Assembly (NCBI GenBank): GCA_900320815.1
Contig: ONTY01000013.1
Location: forward strand, 1-13,745
Length of the DNA: 13,745 nucleotides
Direction of reading: 5' to 3'
DNA from: an uncultured Pseudomonadota bacterium
Lineage (GTDB): Bacteria; Pseudomonadota; Gammaproteobacteria; Burkholderiales; Burkholderiaceae_C
Below the pieces are notes generated by a model, which worked only from the letters and a program-made list of their open reading frames with translations, was not told the DNA's origin and searched no databases. The number at the start of each line of letters is the position of its first letter. Within the stretch, counting starts at the first letter, position 1. This document shows, in pieces, positions 1 to 13,745 of the stretch. Made by a program: the position numbers and the translations under genes.

Positions 1-500
1 ACTCCTTCGCCGAAGAAAACGATGTAGGGTCTGAGCAGTGAGCCGTCGGGATGGCGGTCTCCGTAGTGTTGCTCCCATCCCTCGAGGGGCACGGTAGCGG
101 TCTCGTTCTTCTCCGAGCGGCAGATGCGGTCGGCGTCTTCATAGCTGAGCACGGCGCCCAAACGGTTGGGGACGATGATGCCGAATACCCGCGCCTTGCC
201 CTCCACGGCGGCGGCGCCGGCGGCGATCTTCTCCGCAGTGTTCTGGGCGTAGGTGGGGAGGAAGCCGAACAGCTCATAGCCCGCGTCGCCGATCAGCGCC
301 ACGGAGTTGTAAAAGCGGACGGGCTGGCCGCTGATGTCGATGCCCTGGGGCAGGCGGAGCGTATTGTAGAACGCCGTGACGTTTTCCGCATAGGCGGCTT
401 CGCCTGTGCGGAGATTTTTTTGCCGCGCCCAGCGTTCGACGGCGGAGAACAGTTCGTACCCCACAGTCACATCCAGGCGGCGAAGGGTGACGCGCCTTGC
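1..500 (-). CDS. Partial protein, possibly DHHW-family-like, unlike its neighbours
   Basis: The minus strand is open from about 500 down to the window edge and reads as a plausible protein rather than a shadow. It has mixed hydrophobic and polar composition, GC-rich third positions and segments such as [31 protein letters not shown] and [14 protein letters not shown]. The order of a Tyr-Asn strand, a helical stretch and then a 'V.G.IVPN' strand faintly recalls DHHW-motif proteins of Firmicutes, which are thought to act in cell-envelope polymer modification, but I see no DHHW motif here. No start or stop is visible. The right boundary is set by the point where ABC-F-like plus-strand coding begins and is good to about 10 bp only. 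The orientation opposes the following genes, and no betaproteobacterial neighbour is expected here, so it may be joined artificially. Function unproven. Confidence 0.35.
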
Positions 501-623
501 CAGCGTCGCCGCGTCGATTTGGCGCGCCTTCTCGTAGGCGATTACGACGTGATCATGCTCGATGAGCCGACTAACCATTTGGATGTCCGCTCGATTAATT
601 GGTTGGCGCAGCACCTGAAGACC
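501..623 (+). pseudogene. Slice of an ABC-F family ATPase (Walker B region)
   Basis: About 41 codons read [17 protein letters not shown], then [11 protein letters not shown], then [13 protein letters not shown]. This is the stretch just after the ABC signature, followed by the Walker B motif with the LDEPTNHLD box diagnostic of ABC-F (EttA/Uup/Vga-like) translation-associated ATPases. The wording is closest, from memory, to actinobacterial members. Nothing of Walker A, the first ABC domain, the linker or the switch histidine region is present. The frame is open straight into the RNB ribonuclease downstream, but no known protein family joins these two. The piece is the size of one sequencing read and begins and ends abruptly. 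It is best read as a foreign fragment, probably an assembly chimera. Confidence 0.75.
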
Positions 624-626
624 GGG

Positions 627-1469
627 CGCGAAAAAGTGCGTGGCAGGGCGGAGCAGTTCCGCGCTGACTATTCCTTTCGCCTTGAAAAACCGGACGGCGC
701 GCCGCCCACGGGGGAGGAGCGCGTGCGCATTACACAGCGCACAAGGGGTGCGGTGCTGGACACCATCGTCTCCGAGCTGATGATTCTGGCGAATACCACC
801 TGGGGGCAGTGGCTGCACGAAAAGGGAACCGCCGCCATCTACCGCAGCCAGGCCAGTCTGGCGCCCGGGGTGAAGGTGCGCATGGGGGTGCGTGCGTTAC
901 CTCATGCGGGTATGGGTGTACCGTGCTATGCTTGGGTCACCTCGCCGCTGCGCCGCTATGTGGATTTGCTCAACCAGTGGCAGCTCATCGCCTGTGTGCG
1001 CGGCGAGGCGCCGCCTTTCGCGCCCAAAGATACGGCGCTGCTGGCGACGGTGAGCGCCTTTGACGCGGCGTATACCGCCTACGGCGCGCATCAGGCGGCG
1101 ATGGAACGCTTCTGGACGCTGCGCTGGCTGCAGCAGGAGGGCTGCACCGAGTTGGATGCCACGCTGCTGCGCGAGCAGGCACAAGGCGTGTGGCTGGCGC
1201 GCGCGCAAGGTTTGCCGCTGGTATTCACGGCGCTGGGCGCAGCCAGCGCGGCGGCAGGCGCGCAGGTGCGCGTGCGGCTGGGTGCGCCCGACGAGATTGC
1301 GCTGGACGTGCGTGCCACCGTGCTTGGCGTGCTGCGTGGTGGCGACGCAGCACCGGCTGCCCCAGAAGATGAGGTGCAAGAGGCCGCCGGCCCGCTGACG
1401 ATTGCCGTGGATGTGGATGAGCCGCCGCCGCCAGAAGGCGCGGCGGGCACAGATAATCCGGTGCTGTGA
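627..1469 (+). CDS. RNB-domain ribonuclease (RNase II/R family), C-terminal part
   Basis: This is the C-terminal 280 codons of a 3'-5' exoribonuclease of the RNB (RNase II/R) family, which degrades RNA in the cytoplasm. The diagnostic signature is clear at about 924-986: [18 protein letters not shown], the [13 protein letters not shown] box. Upstream lies [14 protein letters not shown], the helix usual before it. The catalytic aspartate cluster and the N-terminal cold-shock/OB part are absent, so the protein is truncated at the junction near 627. The long open frame back to 51 is not trustworthy, because it passes through an ABC-F slice and a shadow region. The C-terminus is acidic and Pro/Ala rich. 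The stop codon TGA shares one base with the ATG of the next gene, which implies translational coupling. In Burkholderiales this RNase typically precedes a TonB-like gene, as here. Confidence 0.85.
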
Positions 1470-2437
1470 TGCAACAAGTGCTGCGCTTTCCCCGTTCCGT
1501 GTCCACGCTGCAATGGGCGTTGGGCTTTTCTGTTTTGCTGCATGCGGCGCTGCTGACGGTGCGTTTTGTGGATCCTGAGGGTCTGCAGCACCTGTTTCGC
1601 AGCAGCTCGCTGGAAATCGTGCTGGTGAACGCCTTCTCGGATGAAAAACCACCTGAGAAGCCGCAAGCCATCGCGCAAGCCACGCTCGCCGGCGGTGGCG
1701 AAGCGCCCGAAGAAGGGCGCATGGCCGCCACGCCGCTGCCCGCCACTGGGCAAGAGAGCGAGGGCGACTCACTCATTGAAGAACACCAGCGCAGCCTGGA
1801 CGCGCTCATTGAGCAGCAGGAAGAAATCCTGGCCGCTGTGCGCCGCCAGGTGGCCGCGCTGCCCATACCTGACCCAGAGCGCCTGGCCGAGGGCGATCCC
1901 GAGGCGCTGGCGCAGCAAGAGCGCCTGCAGGCCATGCTCAACACGCTGGGGCTTATTGAAAAGCGCATTGAGGAAGAAAACTCGCGCCCGCGCAAGCGTT
2001 ACCTCAGCCCAGCTACGCTGGGCACCACGTACGCCGAGTACTACGACGCCATGCGCCGCGCCATTGAGGCGCGCGGCACTGAACGCTTTCCCGAAGTGGG
2101 CGGGCGCAAGCTCTATGGCGAACTCGTCATGGCGCTGCTTGTCAACCACGATGGCAGCGTGCTGGAAGCGCGCGTGGAGCGCAGCTCTGGCGACCGCCAG
2201 CTTGACCGCATGGCCGAGACCATCGTTGCCTCCGCCGGCCCGTTTGGCCCCTTCACGCCCGCCATGCGCAAAGACACCGACCAGTTTGATGTGACGGCGC
2301 TTTTTAAATTCACCCGCCAAGGCACGCTGGAGACCACGCTGCAGGCCGACGAGGTCACGGAAATGCGCGAGCAGCTGCTGGGGAGCAGCCACGGCGAAAG
2401 TGCCGAAGGCGCCGCTGCTCCCGCTCCCGCTCCCTGA
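1469..2437 (+). CDS. TonB-like energy transducer / TonB C-terminal domain protein
   Basis: A 322-residue inner-membrane-anchored periplasmic protein. Residues about 14-34 form one transmembrane segment after a short basic N-terminus, giving a signal-anchor topology. Then comes a Pro/Glu-rich spacer, a Glu/Gln/Leu-rich stretch (about 95-170) with heptad character that suggests a coiled coil, and a TonB-C-like domain at about 185-285 with the pattern GELVMALLVNHDGSVLEARV and DRMAETIVASAGPFGPF. Classical TonB couples the proton-motive force to outer-membrane receptors through ExbB/ExbD. No exbBD is present here, and in this genomic position the protein may serve another envelope role. ATG 1469 overlaps the TGA of the RNase gene. 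A GTG three bases earlier is possible but less likely. mtgA follows six bases after the stop, so the three genes probably form one transcript. Confidence 0.8.
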   Translation: MQQVLRFPRSVSTLQWALGFSVLLHAALLTVRFVDPEGLQHLFRSSSLEIVLVNAFSDEKPPEKPQAIAQATLAGGGEAPEEGRMAATPLPATGQESEGDSLIEEHQRSLDALIEQQEEILAAVRRQVAALPIPDPERLAEGDPEALAQQERLQAMLNTLGLIEKRIEEENSRPRKRYLSPATLGTTYAEYYDAMRRAIEARGTERFPEVGGRKLYGELVMALLVNHDGSVLEARVERSSGDRQLDRMAETIVASAGPFGPFTPAMRKDTDQFDVTALFKFTRQGTLETTLQADEVTEMREQLLGSSHGESAEGAAAPAPAP

Positions 2438-2443
2438 GAGCTG

Positions 2444-3142
2444 ATGCGGCGCACCATTTGGCGGCTGGCGGCACTCATCTTCATGGCCGCGCTGGGGCTG
2501 CAGGCGGGCTTTGCTGCCCGCATTGCCCTCATGGCGCGCTTTGCCCCACACACCAGCGCCATGCAGCGCAGCGAAATGTGGCGGCAGGCGCACAGCGGGC
2601 AGGGCAACTGGGCGGCGCGCTGGCAGCAGCAGTGGGTGGATGAGGGCGGCATCTCCCCGCACTTGATGCGTGCCGTGCTTGCTGCCGAAGATGACGGCTT
2701 CATCCACCACAGCGGCGTGGACTGGGATGCCATCCGCCGCGCCCGCTTGCGCAACGCGCGCCGCAGCAGCGCGCGTCCGCACGGCGGCTCCACCATCACG
2801 CAGCAGCTGGCGAAAAACCTCTTTCTTTCTGGCGAGCGCACCCTTGCGCGCAAAGCGCAGGAACTCGTGCTGGCGCTGGCGCTGGAAGCCCTGCTGGACA
2901 AGCGCCGCATCCTCACGCTGTATCTGAACACCGTGGAGTGGGGCGAAGGCATCTGGGGCGCCGAAGCCGCTGCGCGCCACTACTTTGGCTGCAGCGCCGC
3001 TGAGTTGAGCGCGCCGCAAGCCGCGCAGCTTGCCGTGCTGCTGCCCGCGCCGCGCCGCTACGGCGCGCACATCAACACTGGCGCGCTACGCACCAAGGCG
3101 CGGCGCATTGCCGCGCGCATGAGCGCGACGCCACTGCCCTGA
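2444..3142 (+). CDS. mtgA: Monofunctional biosynthetic peptidoglycan transglycosylase
   Basis: A 232-residue GT51 enzyme that polymerises lipid II into glycan strands at the outer face of the inner membrane. A hydrophobic N-terminal anchor spans about residues 7-30. All GT51 motifs are present: [10 protein letters not shown] (82-91, E82 being the expected catalytic base), [14 protein letters not shown] (114-127), RKAQE (136-140, E140 the second conserved acid), [13 protein letters not shown] (160-172) and the AAxxYF box (176-181), then LLPAPRRY. Length is normal for MtgA, and no transpeptidase domain follows. The start is ATG 2444, with a weak GAGAG Shine-Dalgarno just upstream inside the previous stop region. 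In many Burkholderiales aroE lies between the TonB-like gene and mtgA; here they are adjacent. Confidence 0.95.
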
Positions 3143-3155
3143 CGCCGCCGCTGCC

Positions 3156-3716
3156 ATGTCCGCTGCTGCCGCTGCTCCCACGCGCATCCTTGGCATTGAC
3201 CCCGGTTTGCGCACCACCGGCTTTGGCGTCATTGAGCTGCACGGCGCGCAGCCCGTGTATGTGGCCAGCGGCACCATCCGCACCGCCAGCGCCGCGCAGG
3301 GCAATTTGCCCGAGCGGCTGAAACTCATCTTTGACGGCATCTGCGAGCTGCACGCGCGCTACGCGCCGCAGGAAGCGGCCATAGAAATCGTCTTCTCCAA
3401 CGTCAACGCCCAGTCCACCCTGCTGCTTGGGCAAGCGAGGGGCGCGTGCCTTGTGGCGCTGGCTGCCAGCAGTTTGCACGTGGCCGAATACACCGCGCTG
3501 CAAATGAAAAAAGCCATTGCCGGCCACGGCAAAGCTGCCAAGCGCGAAGTGCAGGCGATGGTGCAGCGCCTGCTGGCGCTGCCTGCCGCGCCCGGGCCAG
3601 ACGCAGCGGACGCGCTGGGGCTGGCCATCACGCATGCGCACGCGCGCCGTGCCCTTGCACTGCTCACCGATGCGGGGCTGCAACGTCGCGCCAGCAGCAT
3701 GTACCGGCGGCGTTAG
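3156..3716 (+). CDS. ruvC: Crossover junction endodeoxyribonuclease RuvC
   Basis: A 186-residue Holliday-junction resolvase that cuts four-way DNA junctions symmetrically, together with RuvAB, in recombinational repair. The four acidic active-site residues are all visible: D15 in GIDPG, E77 in AAIEIVFSN, and D149 and D152 in GPDAADALG. Other family marks are LLLGQARGA (89-97) and [13 protein letters not shown] (120-132). Length is slightly above the usual 170-180 because of an Ala-rich N-terminus. ATG 3156 lies 13 bp after the mtgA stop and has no clear Shine-Dalgarno, so it probably depends on translation of the upstream gene. ruvA and ruvB do not follow. This is unlike the common ruvC-ruvA-ruvB cluster, so RuvAB must be encoded elsewhere. 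The transcript likely ends at the hairpin at 3893-3918. Confidence 0.95.
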
Positions 3717-6653: not shown

Positions 6654-7031
6654 TTAGGGGTATGTGAGTTGTGAGGGGTTCTCTTTTTCACTGCTGCCTT
6701 GGAGCAAGTCTTTGAGTTTGGGGCTGGGGTGGAAGGTGACGACGCGGCGCGCGGCAATGGGGATGGCTTCGCCAGTGCGCGGGTTGCGCCCGGGGCGCGG
6801 CGCTTTGGTGCGAAGCTGGAAGTTGCCAAAGCCGGTGAGCTTGATGTCGTCACCGGCGATGAGGCGCTCGCTGAGGATGTCAAAAAAGGCGTCCACCATG
6901 TCTTTGGCTTCGCGCTTGTTGAAGCCGATGTGCTCGAACAGATACTCGGTGAGGCCGGCTTTGGTGAGCGCGGGGGTTTCCAGCGTGTCAAAGGTAAACG
7001 GCGCCTCGGGCGGCGGTGTGTCGGCGGGCAT
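6654..7031 (-). CDS. ihfA: Integration host factor subunit alpha
   Basis: A 125-residue HU/IHF-family nucleoid protein. With IHF-beta it forms a heterodimer that binds specific sites and bends DNA sharply, acting in recombination, replication and transcription. The family body starts at [20 protein letters not shown] (22-41). The beta-arm region has [11 protein letters not shown] (64-74) and the arm tip [12 protein letters not shown] (81-92) with the DNA-intercalating proline at 84, followed by [11 protein letters not shown]. The protein is about 25 residues longer than E. coli IHF-alpha, mostly an acidic/Pro-rich N-terminal tail. The start is well supported: GGAGT lies 8 nt before ATG 7031. 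It follows pheT by 30 bp, the usual order, and is probably co-transcribed with it. Confidence 0.95.
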
Positions 7032-7061
7032 GGTGGCGACTCCTTTCTTTTTGTGGCGCTC

Positions 7062-9494
7062 TTAGCTGCGCAGGCGCGCGCCGAGGTTGGTGGCAAGGCT
7101 GTGCAGCACGGCGTGTACGGCGGCGTCAATGGCATCGTCGGCCAGCGGCTGGTCGCTGCCCAGTTGCAGGCGGCAGGCGAGGCTTTTTTCGCCCGCCTGC
7201 ATGCCGGCGTCGCCGGGTTTGGGGCGGTAGATGTCAAAGAGCGTGGCGCCGCGCAGCAATCCCTGCGTTTTGGCAGCATGGATGATGGCCATGACCTGCG
7301 CGTGCGTGACGGCCTCCGGAACGATGACGGCGATGTCGCGCCAGACGGCGTGTTGCCGTGGCACAGGGGCGGCGTGGGGCAGGGGGCGCGCGAGGGCGGC
7401 AGCAAGCTCTAGTTCAAAGAGCACGGGGGCGTGCGGCAGCTCCCACACCTGGCGCCAGCGCGGGTGCAGCTCACCGATGAAGCCGACGGGTTTGCCACCG
7501 AGCACGATGCGCGCGCTGCGCCCTGGGTGCAGGGCGGGGTGGGTGGCGGCTTCAAAGACGGGGGTGAGGGGCGCGAGCAGGCTTTCCACGTCGCCTTTCA
7601 TGTCGTAGAAGTCCACGGGCGGCTGGCGGCCTTCCCAGCCTTGGGCGCTGGCGCTGCCCCAGGCGAGGGCGGCGAGGCGCTCGGGCTGATGGATGCCGCG
7701 CACGCTGGCGTCGCCGGTGGGCACGCTGGCGTCGCGGCAAAAGGCGCGCCCCAGTTCAAAGACACGCACGCGCGCGGCGCGCCGGTCAAGGTTGTATTTC
7801 AGCACTTGCAGCAACGAGGCCATGAGCGAGGAGCGCATGACGCCCATCTGGCTGGCGATGGGGTTGAGCAGGCGGATGGGGTTTTGGTTGTTGGCAAGGT
7901 CGCGTTCCCACGCCTCGTCCACAAAGCTGAAGTTGATGGTTTCCAGATAGCCCAGCGCGGCCATGCTGCGGCGCACGGCAAAGCGGCTGCGCTGCGTGGC
8001 AGGCGGGGTGCGCGGCGCAATGGGCGCCAGCGGGGTGGTGTCGGGCAGTTTGTCGTAGCCGATGAGGCGGGCGATTTCCTCGATGAGGTCGGCCTCGATG
8101 CGCACGTCAAAGCGGTGGCTGGGCGGCTGCACGCTGAACACACCTTCGGCGCTGCCGCTGTATTCCATGCCAAGGCGCCGCAGCACGTCCTCGCACTGCG
8201 CGGCGCTGATGGGCATGCCGATGACTTTGGCGGCGCGTGCGGCGCGCAGGGTGATGGGCGCGGGCTGCGGAAGGCGCGGCGCCTGGTCGTCGATGGGGCC
8301 GACGCGCGTCTCAGGCGTGCCGCAGATGTCAAGGATGAGGCGCGTGATGCGCTCAATGGCGCGCACGGTGTTGGCTGGGTCTACGCCGCGCTCGAAGCGG
8401 TGGCCGGCGTCAGTGGCAAAGTTGAAGCGGCGCGGGCGCCCGGCGATGGCGTCTGGCCACCAGAAGGCGGCTTCCACATACACGGCCTGCGTGCTGTCAG
8501 ACACGGCAGTGGCCTCGCCGCCCATGATGCCGGCCATTGATTCGACGGCGCGCTCGTCGGCGATGATGCCGACGCTCTCGTCCAGCGTGACTTCGTCGCC
8601 GTTGAGCAGCGTGAGCTTTTCGCCCTTGCGCGCCCAGCGCACATGCAGGCCGCCGTGGATTTTGTCCAGGTCAAAGATGTGCGAGGGCTGGCCCGTCTCG
8701 AACATGACGTAGTTGGAAATGTCCACGAGTGCAGAGACGCTGCGCTGCCCGCAGCGCGCAAGGCGCTGCACCATCCACTCGGGCGTGGCGGCATGCAGGT
8801 TCAGCCCACGGATGACGCGGCCAGAAAAGCGCCCGCACAGGTCGGTGGCCTCGACGGTCACGGGCAGGCGTTCGTCGCTGTTGGCGGGCACGGGCGGCGC
8901 GTCCCAGCCCGTGAGCGGCGCGCCGGTGAGGGCGGCGAGTTCGCGCGCCGTGCCGTGCACGCTGAGCGCATGCCCGAGGTTGGGGGTGAGCTTGATGTCC
9001 AGCAGCGCGTCGTCCAGCGTCAAACAGTCGCGCACGTTTTGCCCGATGGGGGCGTCGGCGGGCAGTTCCAGCAGACCGGCGTGTTCATCGGAAATGCCGA
9101 GTTCGCGCGCCGAGCACAACATGCCGTGGCTTTCCACGCCGCGCAGCTTGCCGACCTTGATTTTGAAGGGCTTGCCGCTTTCGTCCGGCGGCAGTTCCGC
9201 GCCCACCAGCGCGCAGGGCACGCGGATGCCGGCACGCGCATTGGGGGCGCCGCAGACGATTTGCAGCGGCGCACCGCCTTGCCCGGCGTCCACCTGGCAC
9301 ACGCGCAGGCGGTCGGCGTTGGGGTGCTGTTCGGCGGACTTGATTTCAGCCACGACGATGCCGGTGAAAGGCGGGGCGGCGGGGCGCACGCTTTCCACTT
9401 CCAGCCCACCACCCATCGTCAGGGCGTCGGCCAGTTGCTCGGTGGACAGCGGCGGGTTGCAGAAGTCGCGCAGCCAGGATTCAGGAAGTTGCAT
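7062..9494 (-). CDS. pheT: Phenylalanine--tRNA ligase beta subunit
   Basis: An 810-residue beta subunit of the cytoplasmic alpha2-beta2 PheRS, which charges tRNA-Phe. The domains appear in order: N-terminal segment LPESWLRDFC; OB-fold tRNA-binding domain (about 39-155) with HPNADRLRVCQVD and HGMLCSARELG; B3/B4 editing region (about 210-390) with SALVDISNYVMFETGQPSHIFD and GIMGGEATAV; B5 domain (about 400-490); catalytic-like core with FVDEAWERDL and LLNPIASQMGVMRSSLM; and the C-terminal FDX-ACB anticodon-binding domain (about 715-808) with WRDIAVIVPEAVTHAQV. Length is normal and no frame break is seen. ATG 9494 has no evident Shine-Dalgarno. It lies 47 bp after pheS. Confidence 0.97.
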   Translation of the reverse strand: MQLPESWLRDFCNPPLSTEQLADALTMGGGLEVESVRPAAPPFTGIVVAEIKSAEQHPNADRLRVCQVDAGQGGAPLQIVCGAPNARAGIRVPCALVGAELPPDESGKPFKIKVGKLRGVESHGMLCSARELGISDEHAGLLELPADAPIGQNVRDCLTLDDALLDIKLTPNLGHALSVHGTARELAALTGAPLTGWDAPPVPANSDERLPVTVEATDLCGRFSGRVIRGLNLHAATPEWMVQRLARCGQRSVSALVDISNYVMFETGQPSHIFDLDKIHGGLHVRWARKGEKLTLLNGDEVTLDESVGIIADERAVESMAGIMGGEATAVSDSTQAVYVEAAFWWPDAIAGRPRRFNFATDAGHRFERGVDPANTVRAIERITRLILDICGTPETRVGPIDDQAPRLPQPAPITLRAARAAKVIGMPISAAQCEDVLRRLGMEYSGSAEGVFSVQPPSHRFDVRIEADLIEEIARLIGYDKLPDTTPLAPIAPRTPPATQRSRFAVRRSMAALGYLETINFSFVDEAWERDLANNQNPIRLLNPIASQMGVMRSSLMASLLQVLKYNLDRRAARVRVFELGRAFCRDASVPTGDASVRGIHQPERLAALAWGSASAQGWEGRQPPVDFYDMKGDVESLLAPLTPVFEAATHPALHPGRSARIVLGGKPVGFIGELHPRWRQVWELPHAPVLFELELAAALARPLPHAAPVPRQHAVWRDIAVIVPEAVTHAQVMAIIHAAKTQGLLRGATLFDIYRPKPGDAGMQAGEKSLACRLQLGSDQPLADDAIDAAVHAVLHSLATNLGARLRS

Positions 9495-9541
9495 GGTTGT
9501 ACTCGGGCGGCAAATGTTTTATAGCAATATCAGACGAATTA

Positions 9542-10618
9542 TCAGGAGAATTGTTCGAGGAAACGCACGTCGCCCTCAAAAAATTGGCGCAAGTCGCTCA
9601 CGCCATAACGCAGCATGGCGAGGCGGTCAATACCCGAACCAAAGGCAAAGCCGATATATCGCTCCGGATCCAGCCCCATATTGGTGACGACATTCGGGTG
9701 CACCTGCCCGCAGCCGGACACTTCCAGCCATTTGCCTGCGTTTTTGCCTTCCTGAAACTGAATGTCAATTTCCGCACTTGGTTCGGTGAAGGGAAAATAG
9801 CTTGGACGAAAGCGCAGCTGCAGCTTGTCCGTTTCAAAAAAAGCGCGGCAGAAATTGAGGTACGTCACCTTCAAATCCTTGAAGCTGACGTTTTCGCCCA
9901 GCCACAGCCCTTCCACCTGGTGAAACATGGGCGAGTGCGTGGCGTCATTATCTACGCGGTAGGTGCGCCCCGGGGCAATCACGCGCACCTCTGGGGTTTC
10001 GCCGCGCGCCAGCTCGGCAGCATATTTGCGCGCGCGTGCCGAGGCGTAGCGGATTTGCATGGGGCTGGTGTGCGGGCGCAGGCAGTAGGGCTGCCCGTCT
10101 TCGCCCTGCATGTCCACGTAGAACGTGTCCTGCATGGAGCGCGCCGGATGGTTGGGTGGATTATTGAGTGCGGTAAAGCTGAACCAGTCGCTTTCAATTT
10201 CCGGTCCGTTGGCCACGTCAAAACCCATGCTGGCAAAAATGTGCTCAATACGCTCCCATACCAGGCTGATGGGGTGCAACGCACCTGCGCCGCGCTGGCG
10301 TCCGGGCAGCGTCACGTCCAGCGCCTCGGCTTGAAGTTGGCGTTCCAGTTCAGCGTCTTTGAGTGCCTGACGGCGTGCAGTCAGTGCCGCTTCAATGGCC
10401 TGCTTGGCGCGGTTGATGGCGGCGCCGCGCGTTTTCTTTTCCTCGGGCGCAAGCTGCGCCATGCCGCGCATCAGGGCGGTGACGCTGCCCGATTTCCCCA
10501 GAAACTGCGCCTTGGCATTTTCCAGTTCAGCAGGGGTGGTGGTGGTGGCAAAAGCGCTCGCAGCGTTTTGCACAATCGCTTCTAGGTCAGTGTCTAAATT
10601 GACGGCAGGAGCAGTCAT
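9542..10618 (-). CDS. pheS: Phenylalanine--tRNA ligase alpha subunit
   Basis: A 358-residue catalytic subunit of PheRS, a class II synthetase forming phenylalanyl-adenylate. The N-terminal coiled coil (about 1-100) contacts tRNA. Motif 1 lies near 136-165 ([17 protein letters not shown] and [11 protein letters not shown]). Next come HTSPMQIRY (183-191) and [12 protein letters not shown] (227-238), then motif 2 [15 protein letters not shown] (270-284), and motif 3 [13 protein letters not shown] (327-339), with GFAFG (323-327) carrying the alanine that normally sets substrate specificity. Start: ATG 10618. The frame is open back to a GTG at 10684, but that extension runs through the upstream terminator hairpin and is unlike the family. 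No clear Shine-Dalgarno precedes the ATG. Readthrough of the 10636-10676 hairpin probably controls its expression. Confidence 0.96.
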
Positions 10619-10635
10619 AATAATAAGGTATAGAG

Positions 10636-10676
10636 AAAACAAAAAAGGGGATTGAAGCCGCGCAGCTCCAATCCCC
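10636..10676 (-). terminator. Terminator/attenuator between rplT and pheS
   Basis: On the minus strand GGGGATTGGAGC (10676-10665) pairs with GCTTCAATCCCC (10658-10647), twelve pairs including one G-U, with the loop TGCGCG, followed by six T, G and four T (10646-10636). It starts about 20 bp after the rplT stop and ends 17 bp before the pheS ATG, with no room for a second promoter. It must therefore be partly read through. An alternative 9-bp pairing exists: GCCGCGCAG just after the rplT stop (10692-10684) with CTGCGCGGC in the terminator top (10665-10657). E. coli pheST is attenuated through the pheM leader peptide, but no separate Phe-rich leader with a stop is seen here. Confidence 0.85.
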
Positions 10677-10696
10677 GGCGGCACTGCGCGGCGGCG

Positions 10697-10972
10697 TCAG
10701 GCCAGCTTGGCTTTGGCCTGATCGACGATGGCAGCAAACGCCTCTTTGTCGTGCACGGCAATATCGGCCAGCACTTTTCGGTCCAGACCGATGCCGGCGC
10801 GCGCCATGGCCTCGAGGTCGGCGGTCACCGTCTCCTCGTCGACGTTCCCGTTCACCCAGTACCAGTAGCACCAGGGGTAGACGTTTTTGCGCCGTCCGCG
10901 GAAGCCTTTGGCCAGCGCGAGGATTTTTTTGTGCCGCGCACGTGCGGTCACGCCACGTTTGACTCGGGGCAT
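10697..10972 (-). CDS. rplT: 50S ribosomal protein L20, core replaced by foreign sequence
   Basis: L20 binds 23S rRNA early in 50S assembly and represses its own operon. Residues 1-32 ([20 protein letters not shown] then [11 protein letters not shown]) and 63-91 ([20 protein letters not shown] and the Lys/Ala-rich end) are clear L20. Residues 33-62 are not: [17 protein letters not shown] and [13 protein letters not shown] replace the usual very basic run around QYAYRDRR...LWIARINAAAR...NGLKKAG. The protein is 91 residues against about 118 in the family, so roughly 57 native residues were exchanged for 30, in frame. As written it should not work as L20, yet the gene is needed in its operon, so I suspect the sequence rather than the organism. 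ATG 10972 has the Shine-Dalgarno AAGGAGAG, 24 bp after rpmI. Confidence 0.85.
10787..10876 (-). other. Foreign 90-bp patch in rplT, GH106-like N-terminal motif
   Basis: Thirty codons encoding [17 protein letters not shown] plus [13 protein letters not shown]. From family knowledge, the pattern of aromatic run, W-x-N-G-N-V, then DLEAM..AGIGG is that of the first strand-helix of the catalytic barrel in GH106 alpha-L-rhamnosidase-type enzymes, abundant in gut Bacteroidales. The codons (GAC GAG GAG ACG, GTG ACC GCC GAC CTC GAG) fit a GC-rich Bacteroidales such as Alistipes, which is inference. The right junction lies in GCCGGCATCG (Ala-Gly-Ile), a string both L20 and GH106 genes could share, as expected of a short-overlap mis-join. 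Confidence 0.75.
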
Positions 10973-10996
10973 TTTTGACTCTCCTTCATTGCTGGT

Positions 10997-11200
10997 TTAC
11001 AGGCCGGCAAACGGCAGCATTTGTGCCATTTGTGCCATGCTGGTTTCATGCACGTTGACCATGCCGCGCAGTTTGCGCTTGGTCTTGGTGCTTTTCTTGG
11101 TGAGGATATGGCGCTTGTACGCCTGGGCACGTTTGACGGTACCGCCAGGACGCACGCGGAAGCGCTTTTTGGCGCCGCTTTTGGTTTTCATCTTGGGCAT
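10997..11200 (-). CDS. rpmI: 50S ribosomal protein L35
   Basis: A 67-residue, strongly basic protein of the large ribosomal subunit. The family reads almost throughout: [17 protein letters not shown] (1-17), [19 protein letters not shown] (19-37), [14 protein letters not shown] and the C-terminus AQMLPFAGL. The start is ATG 11200, with AAGGAG 8 nt upstream. An in-frame TTG two codons earlier is not needed. rplT follows after 24 bp, the usual order. Where studied, rpmI and rplT are repressed together by L20 binding upstream of rpmI. The leader here is 138 bp and structured (see 11236-11254). Confidence 0.96.
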
Positions 11201-11235
11201 GTGCAATGCTCCTTTTCATTTGTGCCTGCGAGGCG

Positions 11236-11254
11236 GGCGCGAAACCCTCGCGCC
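11236..11254 (-). promoter_or_regulatory. Strong hairpin in the infC-rpmI leader
   Basis: In the 138-bp gap between infC (stop 11339) and rpmI (start 11200), the minus strand has GGCGCGA/TCGCGCC, seven perfect pairs around GGGTT, extendable by three pairs beyond a bulged C. No T-run follows, so it is not a terminator. Just after infC a weaker GACAT/ATGTC hairpin (11314-11331) precedes a TTCTTTTTT run and might attenuate. In E. coli, L20 represses rpmI through structures in this interval. An equivalent role here is inference. Confidence 0.45.
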
Positions 11255-11338
11255 GCTTGCCACAGCCTTGCAGCCACTTGTGTATGCCAGCGACTTCCAA
11301 AAAAGAAGGCCGTGACATGGATTTTTATGTCTCGCTTT

Positions 11339-11959
11339 TTATGTTGCCACAGGTGGTGCGTTATCGCTTTCTGATTGTGGTGTGGCAGGTTTGGTGGCGC
11401 TGCCGCCAGATTTTTTTCGTGCCGGCGCCAACATCATCGTCATCTGGCGGCCTTCGAGCTTGGGATGCTGCTCGATGGTAATGGTGTCGCCGAGCGCGTC
11501 ACGCACGCGGTAGATGAGTGCCAGGCCAAGTTCCTGATGCGTGATTTCACGCCCACGAAAGCGCAGCGTGACTTTGACCTTATTGCCTGCTTCCAAAAAG
11601 CGCCGGATATTGCGCACCTTGATATTGAAGTCGCCCTCGTCAGTGCCCGGGCGGAATTTGACTTCCTTGGTTTCAATAACGGTTTGCCTGGCCTTGGCTT
11701 CGGCGGCTTTTTTCTGCTCCTGATAGCGGAATTTGCCGTAATCTACCAAGCGGCAGACAGGGGGCGTGGCGTGGGCGGCGATTTCCACCAAGTCTACATC
11801 GCGCTCTCCGGCCATGCGCAGAGCTTCTTGCAGGGGGACGATACCCAGAGGTTCATTGTCCGGGCCGTTCAGGCGCACCTCAGGAGCGGTGATTTCTCGA
11901 TTCAGGCGGTGTGCACGCTCCTCGCGCTGGCGGCGGCGGTCACGGAAATTGGTAGCGAT
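11339..11959 (-). CDS. infC: Translation initiation factor IF-3, AUC start
   Basis: A 206-residue IF3 that binds the 30S subunit, prevents premature 50S joining and checks start-codon and initiator-tRNA fit. The N-domain runs from about residue 18 (HRLNREITAPEVRLNG) through DLVEIAAHATPPVCRLVDYG. A Lys-rich linker (FRYQEQKKAAEAKARQ) leads to the C-domain with KEVKFRPGTDEGDFNIKV, RRFLEAGNKVKVTLRFRGRE and LEGRQMTMMLAP. A Ser/Pro-rich tail of about 28 residues extends past the usual end. No ATG, GTG or TTG start fits. The in-frame ATG at 12052 lies inside thrS. The sequence GAGG, 8 nt, then ATC (11959) gives an AUC start. Rare starts let IF3 repress its own synthesis in E. coli (AUU). thrS ends 50 bp upstream. 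Confidence 0.95.
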   Translation of the reverse strand: MATNFRDRRRQREERAHRLNREITAPEVRLNGPDNEPLGIVPLQEALRMAGERDVDLVEIAAHATPPVCRLVDYGKFRYQEQKKAAEAKARQTVIETKEVKFRPGTDEGDFNIKVRNIRRFLEAGNKVKVTLRFRGREITHQELGLALIYRVRDALGDTITIEQHPKLEGRQMTMMLAPARKKSGGSATKPATPQSESDNAPPVAT

Positions 11960-12009
11960 GGTTTGTGCCTCTTGAAAAAAACGGGTAAATGGAAAGGAAA
12001 AATGCAGTG

Positions 12010-13745
12010 TCAGGTTTTGGCAGCAATGTCTGAGCGGATGCGTTCGATACACGCCGACAGCGGCATGACGCCCAGATCAGTATTGCCACGACCACGCACG
12101 GAAACAGTGCCAGCCTGCTTTTCCAGCTCGCCCGCCACCAGGATATAGGGCGGTTTTTGCAGAGAATGTTCACGGATTTTATATGTAATTTTTTCCGGGC
12201 GCAGGTCAAAGATGGTGCGGATACCGTGGTTTTGCAGCGTTTGCGCCACGCTTTGCACGTAGTCGTCCTGCGCGCTGGTGATGCCGGCAACCACGGCCTG
12301 CACAGGCGCCAGCCAGACGGGCATGGCGCCGGCGTGTTGCTCGATGAGGATGCCGATGAAACGTTCCATGCTGCCGACGATGGCGCGGTGCAGCATGACG
12401 GGGTAGTGGCGCGCGCCGTCTTCGCCGACATATTCAGCGCCCAAACGCTGCGGCAGGGAAAAATCCACCTGGATGGTGCCGCACTGCCATTCGCGCCCGA
12501 TGGCGTCTTTGAGTGTATATTCAATCTTGGGACCGTAAAAGGCGCCTTCACCCGGAGAAATCTGATATTCACAGCCGGAGGCGCGCAGACTGTCCATGAG
12601 GGCGTGCTCGGCCTTGTCCCAGATTTCGTCCGCGCCGATGCGTTTTTCCGGTCGCGTGGACACCTTGTAAATGATGTCGGTGAAGCCGAAATCCTTGTAG
12701 ACTTTTTGCAGCAGCGCGGTGTAGGCGGTGCATTCGGGCAAAATCTGCTCTTCGGTGCAGAAAATGTGCCCGTCGTCTTGTGTGAAGGCGCGCACGCGCA
12801 TGACGCCGTGCAGGCTGCCCGAGGGTTCGTTGCGATGGCAGGCGCCAAATTCGCCGTAGCGCAGTGGCAGGTCGCGGTAGCTTTTCACGCCCTGCTTGAA
12901 AATGAGGATGTGGCCGGGGCAGTTCATCGGCTTGAGAGCGTAGTCGCGCTTTTCGCTCTCGGTGGTGAACATGTTTTCGCGGTATTTGTCCCAGTGGCCA
13001 GTTTTTTCCCACAGGCTTTTGTCCAGGATTTGCGGGCCGCGCACTTCCTGGTAGCCATTGTCGCGGTAGACGCGGCGCATGTACTGCTCCAGCTCTTGCC
13101 ACAGCGTCCAGCCTTTGGGATGCCAGAAAACAGTGCCGGGCGAGTGTTCGTCAATATGGAACAAATCCAGTTCGCGTCCGAGGCGGCGGTGGTCGCGCCG
13201 CTCGGCTTCTTCCAGCATGGTGAGGTAGCTGGCGAGTTCTTCTTTTGTCGCCCAAGCGGTGCCATAAATGCGCTGGAGCATTTCATTGCGGTGGTCGCCG
13301 CGCCAGTAGGCGCCGGCAACTTTCATCAGTTTGAAATGTTTGAGGTGCCCGGTGGAGGGAATATGCGGGCCGCGGCACAGGTCTTCAAAGGCGCCTTCAC
13401 GATACAGGCTGATGTTTTCCTCTTCGGGAATGGAAGAAATGATTTCCGCCTTGTAATGCTCACCCAATTCCTTGAAATACGCGATGGCCTCATTGCGCGG
13501 CAGGGTGCGGCGCACGACGGGTTCGTTGAGCGCCGCCAGTTCGTGCATTTTCTTTTCAATGGCAGCAAGGTCGTCCGGGGTGAAGGGGCGCGAATAGCTG
13601 AAATCGTAATAAAAGCCGTTTTCTATGACCGGGCCAATCGTTACTTGCGCATCCGGAAACAGCGTTTTGACGGCGTAGGCCATGAGGTGCGCGCAGGAGT
13701 GGCGCAGCATGGCGAGGCCGTCCTTGTCGCGTGCGGTGACGATGG
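12010..13745 (-). CDS. thrS: Threonine--tRNA ligase, N-terminus off the window
   Basis: A class II synthetase charging tRNA-Thr in the cytoplasm. The frame is open to the right edge; the ATG at 13710 is internal, as [11 protein letters not shown] precedes it. About 577 codons are present, so roughly the first 60 residues (TGS domain) are missing. Visible parts: editing domain with [11 protein letters not shown] (the His-rich entry helix) and [16 protein letters not shown]; catalytic core with the zinc ligands expected in MNCPGH, the VFTQDDGH-type segment [10 protein letters not shown], and [14 protein letters not shown]; motif 2 [16 protein letters not shown]; and the C-terminal anticodon-binding domain starting near [10 protein letters not shown]. 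No breaks are seen. It begins the operon leading into infC. Confidence 0.97.

Follow-up and report, generated by a model that had tools for sequence, protein, structure and literature searches.

The rplT frame of the window encodes a 91-residue ribosomal protein L20 that, judging from sequence comparisons, is almost certainly a product of metagenome assembly that no living cell encodes. By the window we mean the entire stretch of DNA analysed; it is 13,745 nucleotides long and corresponds to one complete contig of a draft genome (339 contigs, 2.10 Mb, 81.39% complete, 0.5% contaminated). In our best explanation, the contig would come from a bacterium similar to Ottowia that itself has an L20 of normal length (118 residues), and the assembly would have put 68 bases of a Kiritimatiellae GH106 gene in the place of about 148 bases from the central part of rplT. 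This reading is supported by the presence of the chimaera on one contig only, the existence of an intact allele, the unbroken L20 genes of relatives, the collinearity of the flanks, the GH106 nature of the insert, a 21-mer at one of its junctions and another patchwork elsewhere in the contig (Table 1).

Table 1. Coordinates of the chimaeric rplT frame, of its parts and of the patchwork at the left end of the contig (positions in the window).
Feature	Positions	Strand	Evidence
rplT reading frame, chimaeric, 91 aa	10697..10972	-	ORF, Pfam, NCBIfam
Native L20 residues 1-32	10877..10972	-	Identity to P0002; G044 alignment resumes from 10876
Foreign 68-nt segment, GH106 N-terminus, 23 residues	10809..10876	-	65/68 bases as in L045; Pfam Glyco_hydro_106
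Native L20 residues 83-118 and stop codon	10697..10808	-	Identity to P0002; G044 alignment up to 10808
21-nt string at right junction	10788..10808	-	One place in donor MAG at 0-1 mismatch, in a GH106 paralogue
SIR2 deacylase scrap	1..119	-	Best SIR2 entries 95-97% identical, 14% of query covered
DHHW-family scrap	120..389	-	P0189 51% identical, 64% of query covered; Pfam DHHW at 15.1 bits (cut-off of 25 not reached)
YigZ C-terminal scrap	375..518	-	P0191 100% identical, 18% of query covered; Pfam DUF1949 at 20.0 bits (cut-off of 23.7 not reached)
ABC-F ATPase scrap	516..620	+	NCBIfam EttA 48.5 bits over 40 residues, partial; Pfam ABC_tran below cut-off
Host RNase II, C-terminal part	601..1469	+	G044 similarity begins; Pfam RNB

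Architecture of the chimaeric L20

The frame encodes, in this order, residues 1-32 of bL20, 23 residues from the N-terminus of a GH106 protein, and bL20 from residue 83 to its end. Both L20 parts (residues 1-32 and 56-91 of the chimaera) are identical to the corresponding residues, 1-32 and 83-118, of an intact allele of 118 residues (P0002, see below), in agreement with the earlier note, made from the sequence alone, which had described the ends of the protein as normal and its length as about 27 residues short. Residues 33-55 of the chimaera take the place of 50 residues of the intact protein, with the frame kept and no stop codon.

The chimaera resembles genuine bL20 proteins in its termini, in its match to Pfam Ribosomal_L20 (PF00453; E-value 1.3e-16, 61.1 bits over two stretches for a cut-off of 30.8, the best stretch being residues 3-32) and in its genetic position between rpmI/infC and pheS/pheT, which is that of collinear relatives. 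The rpmI and thrS genes are presumed to be such. Unlike full-length bL20, it is devoid of the 50 central residues and scores 61.9 bits with the NCBIfam model TIGR01032, below the cut-off of 65.65, whereas the intact allele reaches 161.6 bits. The same frame matches Pfam Glyco_hydro_106 (PF17132) over residues 31-64, with 31.3 bits for a curated cut-off of 29. That match is restricted to positions 7-40 of a profile of 743 positions, and the barrel and catalytic residues of a full-length enzyme are absent. The lost segment, bL20 residues 33-82, was said in the earlier note to hold the basic helices of L20, and it contains 13 basic and 2 acidic residues among 50; the 23 residues that replace it include no basic and 5 acidic residues, and the basic rRNA-binding stretch is missing from the chimaera.

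Origin of the inserted segment

The earlier note had placed a GH106-like core at 10787-10876. The GH106 piece is real, and its borders are tighter (Table 1), the bases 10788-10808 being native L20. We searched for the donor using a degenerate nucleotide pattern for 18 residues of the insert, with all codons allowed except for leucine, for which CTN only was considered. In the genome_contigs collection, a search of which may omit records very near the window's own genome, the single match was a GH106 gene (L045) of Kiritimatiellae bacterium RGIG2765, a 6.3-Mb MAG from goat omasum. Identity over the foreign segment amounts to 65 of 68 bases, which together with the Pfam match confirms the GH106 assignment and places the source in another phylum. 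The next-best matches among the compared loci were two other GH106 genes of the same MAG (54 and 47 bases), followed by loci with at most 38. Shuffled versions of the insert (n=30) matched the donor contig at no more than 37 of 68 bases, and chance is therefore excluded.

The donor gene codes for a protein of 835 residues, of which the insert represents approximately 3%, without the catalytic part. The donor MAG is rich in alpha-L-rhamnosidase-like genes: GH106 matches were obtained on 16 of its contigs, in 27 stretches, some of these stretches (several) being parts of one gene. A source within the window's own genome was considered and rejected, as the only GH106 match in that genome is the insert itself.

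Intact allele and relatives

We searched 5.8 billion proteins for relatives of the chimaera; the 8,000 candidates sharing most words with it were scored, and 120 were listed. The search returned the window's own protein (P0001, present on one contig), followed by P0002, a 118-residue L20 with 5 members on 19 contigs. The latter is identical to the chimaera in all 68 flanking residues (32 + 36), and from this identity we infer that it belongs to the same species. Apart from the window's own protein, none of the 120 proteins listed, out of 8,000 scored, harbours the GH106 domain. Among the matches listed, the relatives named to genus are mostly Ottowia.

In 24 of the 28 other genomes of the genus, L20 is unbroken in one frame (one copy, located where its contig starts, is seen from residue 7 onwards), and the remaining 4 yielded no match. 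A wider sample of 40 relatives, which overlaps with the genus set, gave 37 matches, in frames of 112 to 148 residues, and 3 genomes without a match. The earlier note had proposed a comparison with the L20 of isolates of the same species; among the relatives compared here, the 91-residue form was found in none of those that matched. The note's proposal that the protein is a sequence chimaera and not a result of evolution is supported by this absence, which extends to the listed proteins, and by the cross-phylum origin of the insert.

The relative closest by L20 (G044, 96% of residues) is collinear with the window (86.7% over 6709-10808, 84.6% over 10876-13745), indicating that both flanks derive from a single genome and are correctly ordered, and that only the middle is wrong. 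Between the aligned flanks, 148 bases of this relative are missing, and 67 unrelated bases are found in the window instead; the difference of 81 bases corresponds to 27 codons. As in assembly chimaeras, native collinear flanks thus enclose a segment whose DNA is highly identical to that of another organism, and no independent sequence of the gene was found to carry it, whether in the relatives that matched or among the others of the 120 listed proteins.

These comparisons bear on two biological explanations. Recombination of the Kiritimatiellae GH106 piece into the rplT gene of one living lineage, whose ribosome would tolerate a 91-residue L20, would fit the conservation of the frame at both ends without a stop codon and the fact that no second L20 was found in the window's 81%-complete genome. 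We nevertheless regard it as very improbable, given that the chimaera is on one contig only among the 120 proteins listed, that an allele with identical flanks is intact, and that 13 basic residues are exchanged for none. The residues absent from the chimaera, 33-82, hold much of the rRNA contact region of L20, and in E. coli, truncations of the L20 N-terminal domain are reported to cause 50S precursors to accumulate (PMC6962249). The same contig also harbours a second patchwork that makes no biological sense (see below), and the restriction of the chimaera to one contig, with this patchwork beside it, makes a living lineage very unlikely.

It is barely conceivable that the frame represents a pseudogene copy, with an intact rplT elsewhere in the same cell. 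Such a second copy could be missing from a genome that is only 81% complete, but the frame occupies the position of rplT in collinear relatives, between rpmI/infC and pheS/pheT, its flanks are undecayed (68 of 68 residues as in the intact allele), and each of the 24 other genomes of the genus in which L20 was matched gave a single match.

Of another short L20, encoded by a 957-base metagenome contig (P0051), we note that it has 94 residues, with an internal gap of 25 alignment columns after residue 31; it is possibly another assembly error.

Junctions of the insert

After the right junction, the native L20 sequence starts with CATGGCGCGCGCCGGCATCGG. The 21-mer at this junction was found in one place of the donor MAG at zero or one mismatch (both strands, 6.3 Mb), and the reversed control pattern in none. 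Its counterpart is in another GH106 gene, with one mismatch and in homologous codons (DLEAMARVGIGG). We propose that the assembly path switched genes there via about 21 bases shared between L20 (GMARAGIG) and a GH106 (EAMAR.GIGG), which is what a k=21 graph would allow. A short peptide present in both proteins and read in the same frame would give rise to such strings, which would explain the conservation of the frame. The default starting k of MEGAHIT is 21, and the RGIG name of the donor MAG suggests that it belongs to a ruminant catalogue. The assemblies of that catalogue are attributed to MEGAHIT 1.1.1 and IDBA-UD (PMC8199421), and a mock-community study states that k-mer assembly graphs can include paths with no counterpart in a real genome (PMC8172020).

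The 21-mer is absent from the GH106 gene that matches the insert best, and only a paralogue has it, with one mismatch. The true donor would therefore be a third GH106 gene combining the best match to the insert with the 21-mer; no such gene was found. At the left junction, L20 reads TACC and the insert CCCTGG, and only one or two bases are common to both. We examined the 55 GH106 N-termini that fitted our search pattern, out of 68 hits: all 55 have Arg or Lys before the PW motif, and none displays the left context of the window (YPW) or AMARAGIG after the part found in the insert. With so few shared bases and no matching GH106 context, a k-mer join does not explain the left side; there, the path may have been completed through gap filling or a spurious short overlap. 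Of the short shared string suggested in the earlier note, a candidate is seen on the right, where the 21 bases recur with one mismatch in a GH106 paralogue, and none on the left. A paralogue of the donor MAG with TACCGG before CCCTGG was also considered and set aside, since it yields the window sequence only if one codon is lost.

The left junction, the absence of the 21-mer from the best-matching gene and the lack of further scraps in the other contigs inspected (see below) all weigh against the assembly explanation. The main alternative, likewise an artefact, is that chimaeric library molecules, generated by template switching or mis-ligation, were sequenced and then faithfully assembled. 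Scraps of approximately 70 to 270 bases and a junction of one or two shared bases would suit such molecules better than a k-mer graph. Chance ligation, on the other hand, would not make the insert return to the same L20 gene, collinearly and at the right distance within 81 bases, and a chimaeric molecule would need to outnumber the native path, so that we consider this origin unlikely.

Returning to the assembly explanation, the conservation of the frame at both junctions, which the earlier note had found striking, is confirmed and is less puzzling in the context of the whole contig. The frame is kept at all five same-strand junctions, the sixth (YigZ to ABC-F) switching strand, and three of the five lie on strings or peptides apparently common to both sides. 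Were the junctions random, with a chance of one third at each, all five would be in frame in about 1 case in 240, a post hoc figure that serves as a guide only. Because joins at strings derived from a common peptide keep the frame, the puzzle posed by the two in-frame junctions in rplT is lessened.

Second patchwork at the left end of the contig

Bases 1-600 of the window have no counterpart in the closest relative, with which similarity, at 77%, extends over 601-2381. In this region, the SIR2, DHHW and YigZ scraps share one minus-strand frame, in the reading order YigZ, DHHW, SIR2. The YigZ and DHHW scraps overlap at AENVT (375-389), a peptide present in the relatives of both. The ABC-F scrap runs in frame into RNase II, the two overlapping at WLAQHLK (600-620), where the ABC-F model still aligns and where the RNase II of the closest relative reads RLAQHLK. 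Paludibacteraceae are the bacteria named among the listed SIR2 matches, and a Schwartzia YigZ is in the same match list as P0191. The donor DNA of the four scraps was not found.

One of the SIR2-related proteins, P0190, has 386 residues and contains an incomplete SIR2 deacylase, after which the sequence is repeated almost in full; this protein looks like another assembly duplication.

As in chimaeric contigs from k-mer metagenome assemblies, pieces of unrelated organisms are joined here in one contig; unlike in those, the main piece is very short, confined to a single gene and joined in frame on either side. The position of the second patchwork is that of the chimaeric stretches of a mock community, which are reported to be always at contig ends (PMC8172020). 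We compared 42 of the other 338 contigs of the draft genome (257,785 bases) with 44 stretches of the closest relative (372,372 bases), with approximately 10.9 kb of matches outside the window. Inspection by eye of the breaks in three contigs (L099, L095, L102) revealed no further scrap inside a gene. This comparison over about 10.9 kb sets no scrap rate and lends no support to scraps being common in the genome.

Implications and gene content

No question about the ribosome hangs on the 91-residue L20, as its biology is very probably nonexistent; were the fusion real, most of the rRNA-binding core of L20 would be dispensable. The case is informative as a quality signal, namely a 68-base cross-phylum scrap, in frame, in a housekeeping gene of a genome rated as 0.5% contaminated. 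Such a scrap is probably too small to shift the contamination score, but it introduces a false fusion into protein databases. A possible flag for similar cases would be two partial family matches in one frame that is too short for either family.

Finally, the window and its closest relative differ in the region next to ruvC. A transglycosylase gene (2444-3142, Pfam Transgly) lies between a TonB-like gene and ruvC in the window (2381-3175), whereas these two genes are only 17 bases apart in the relative in the alignment (9465 to 9483), making this difference a candidate gene gain or loss.
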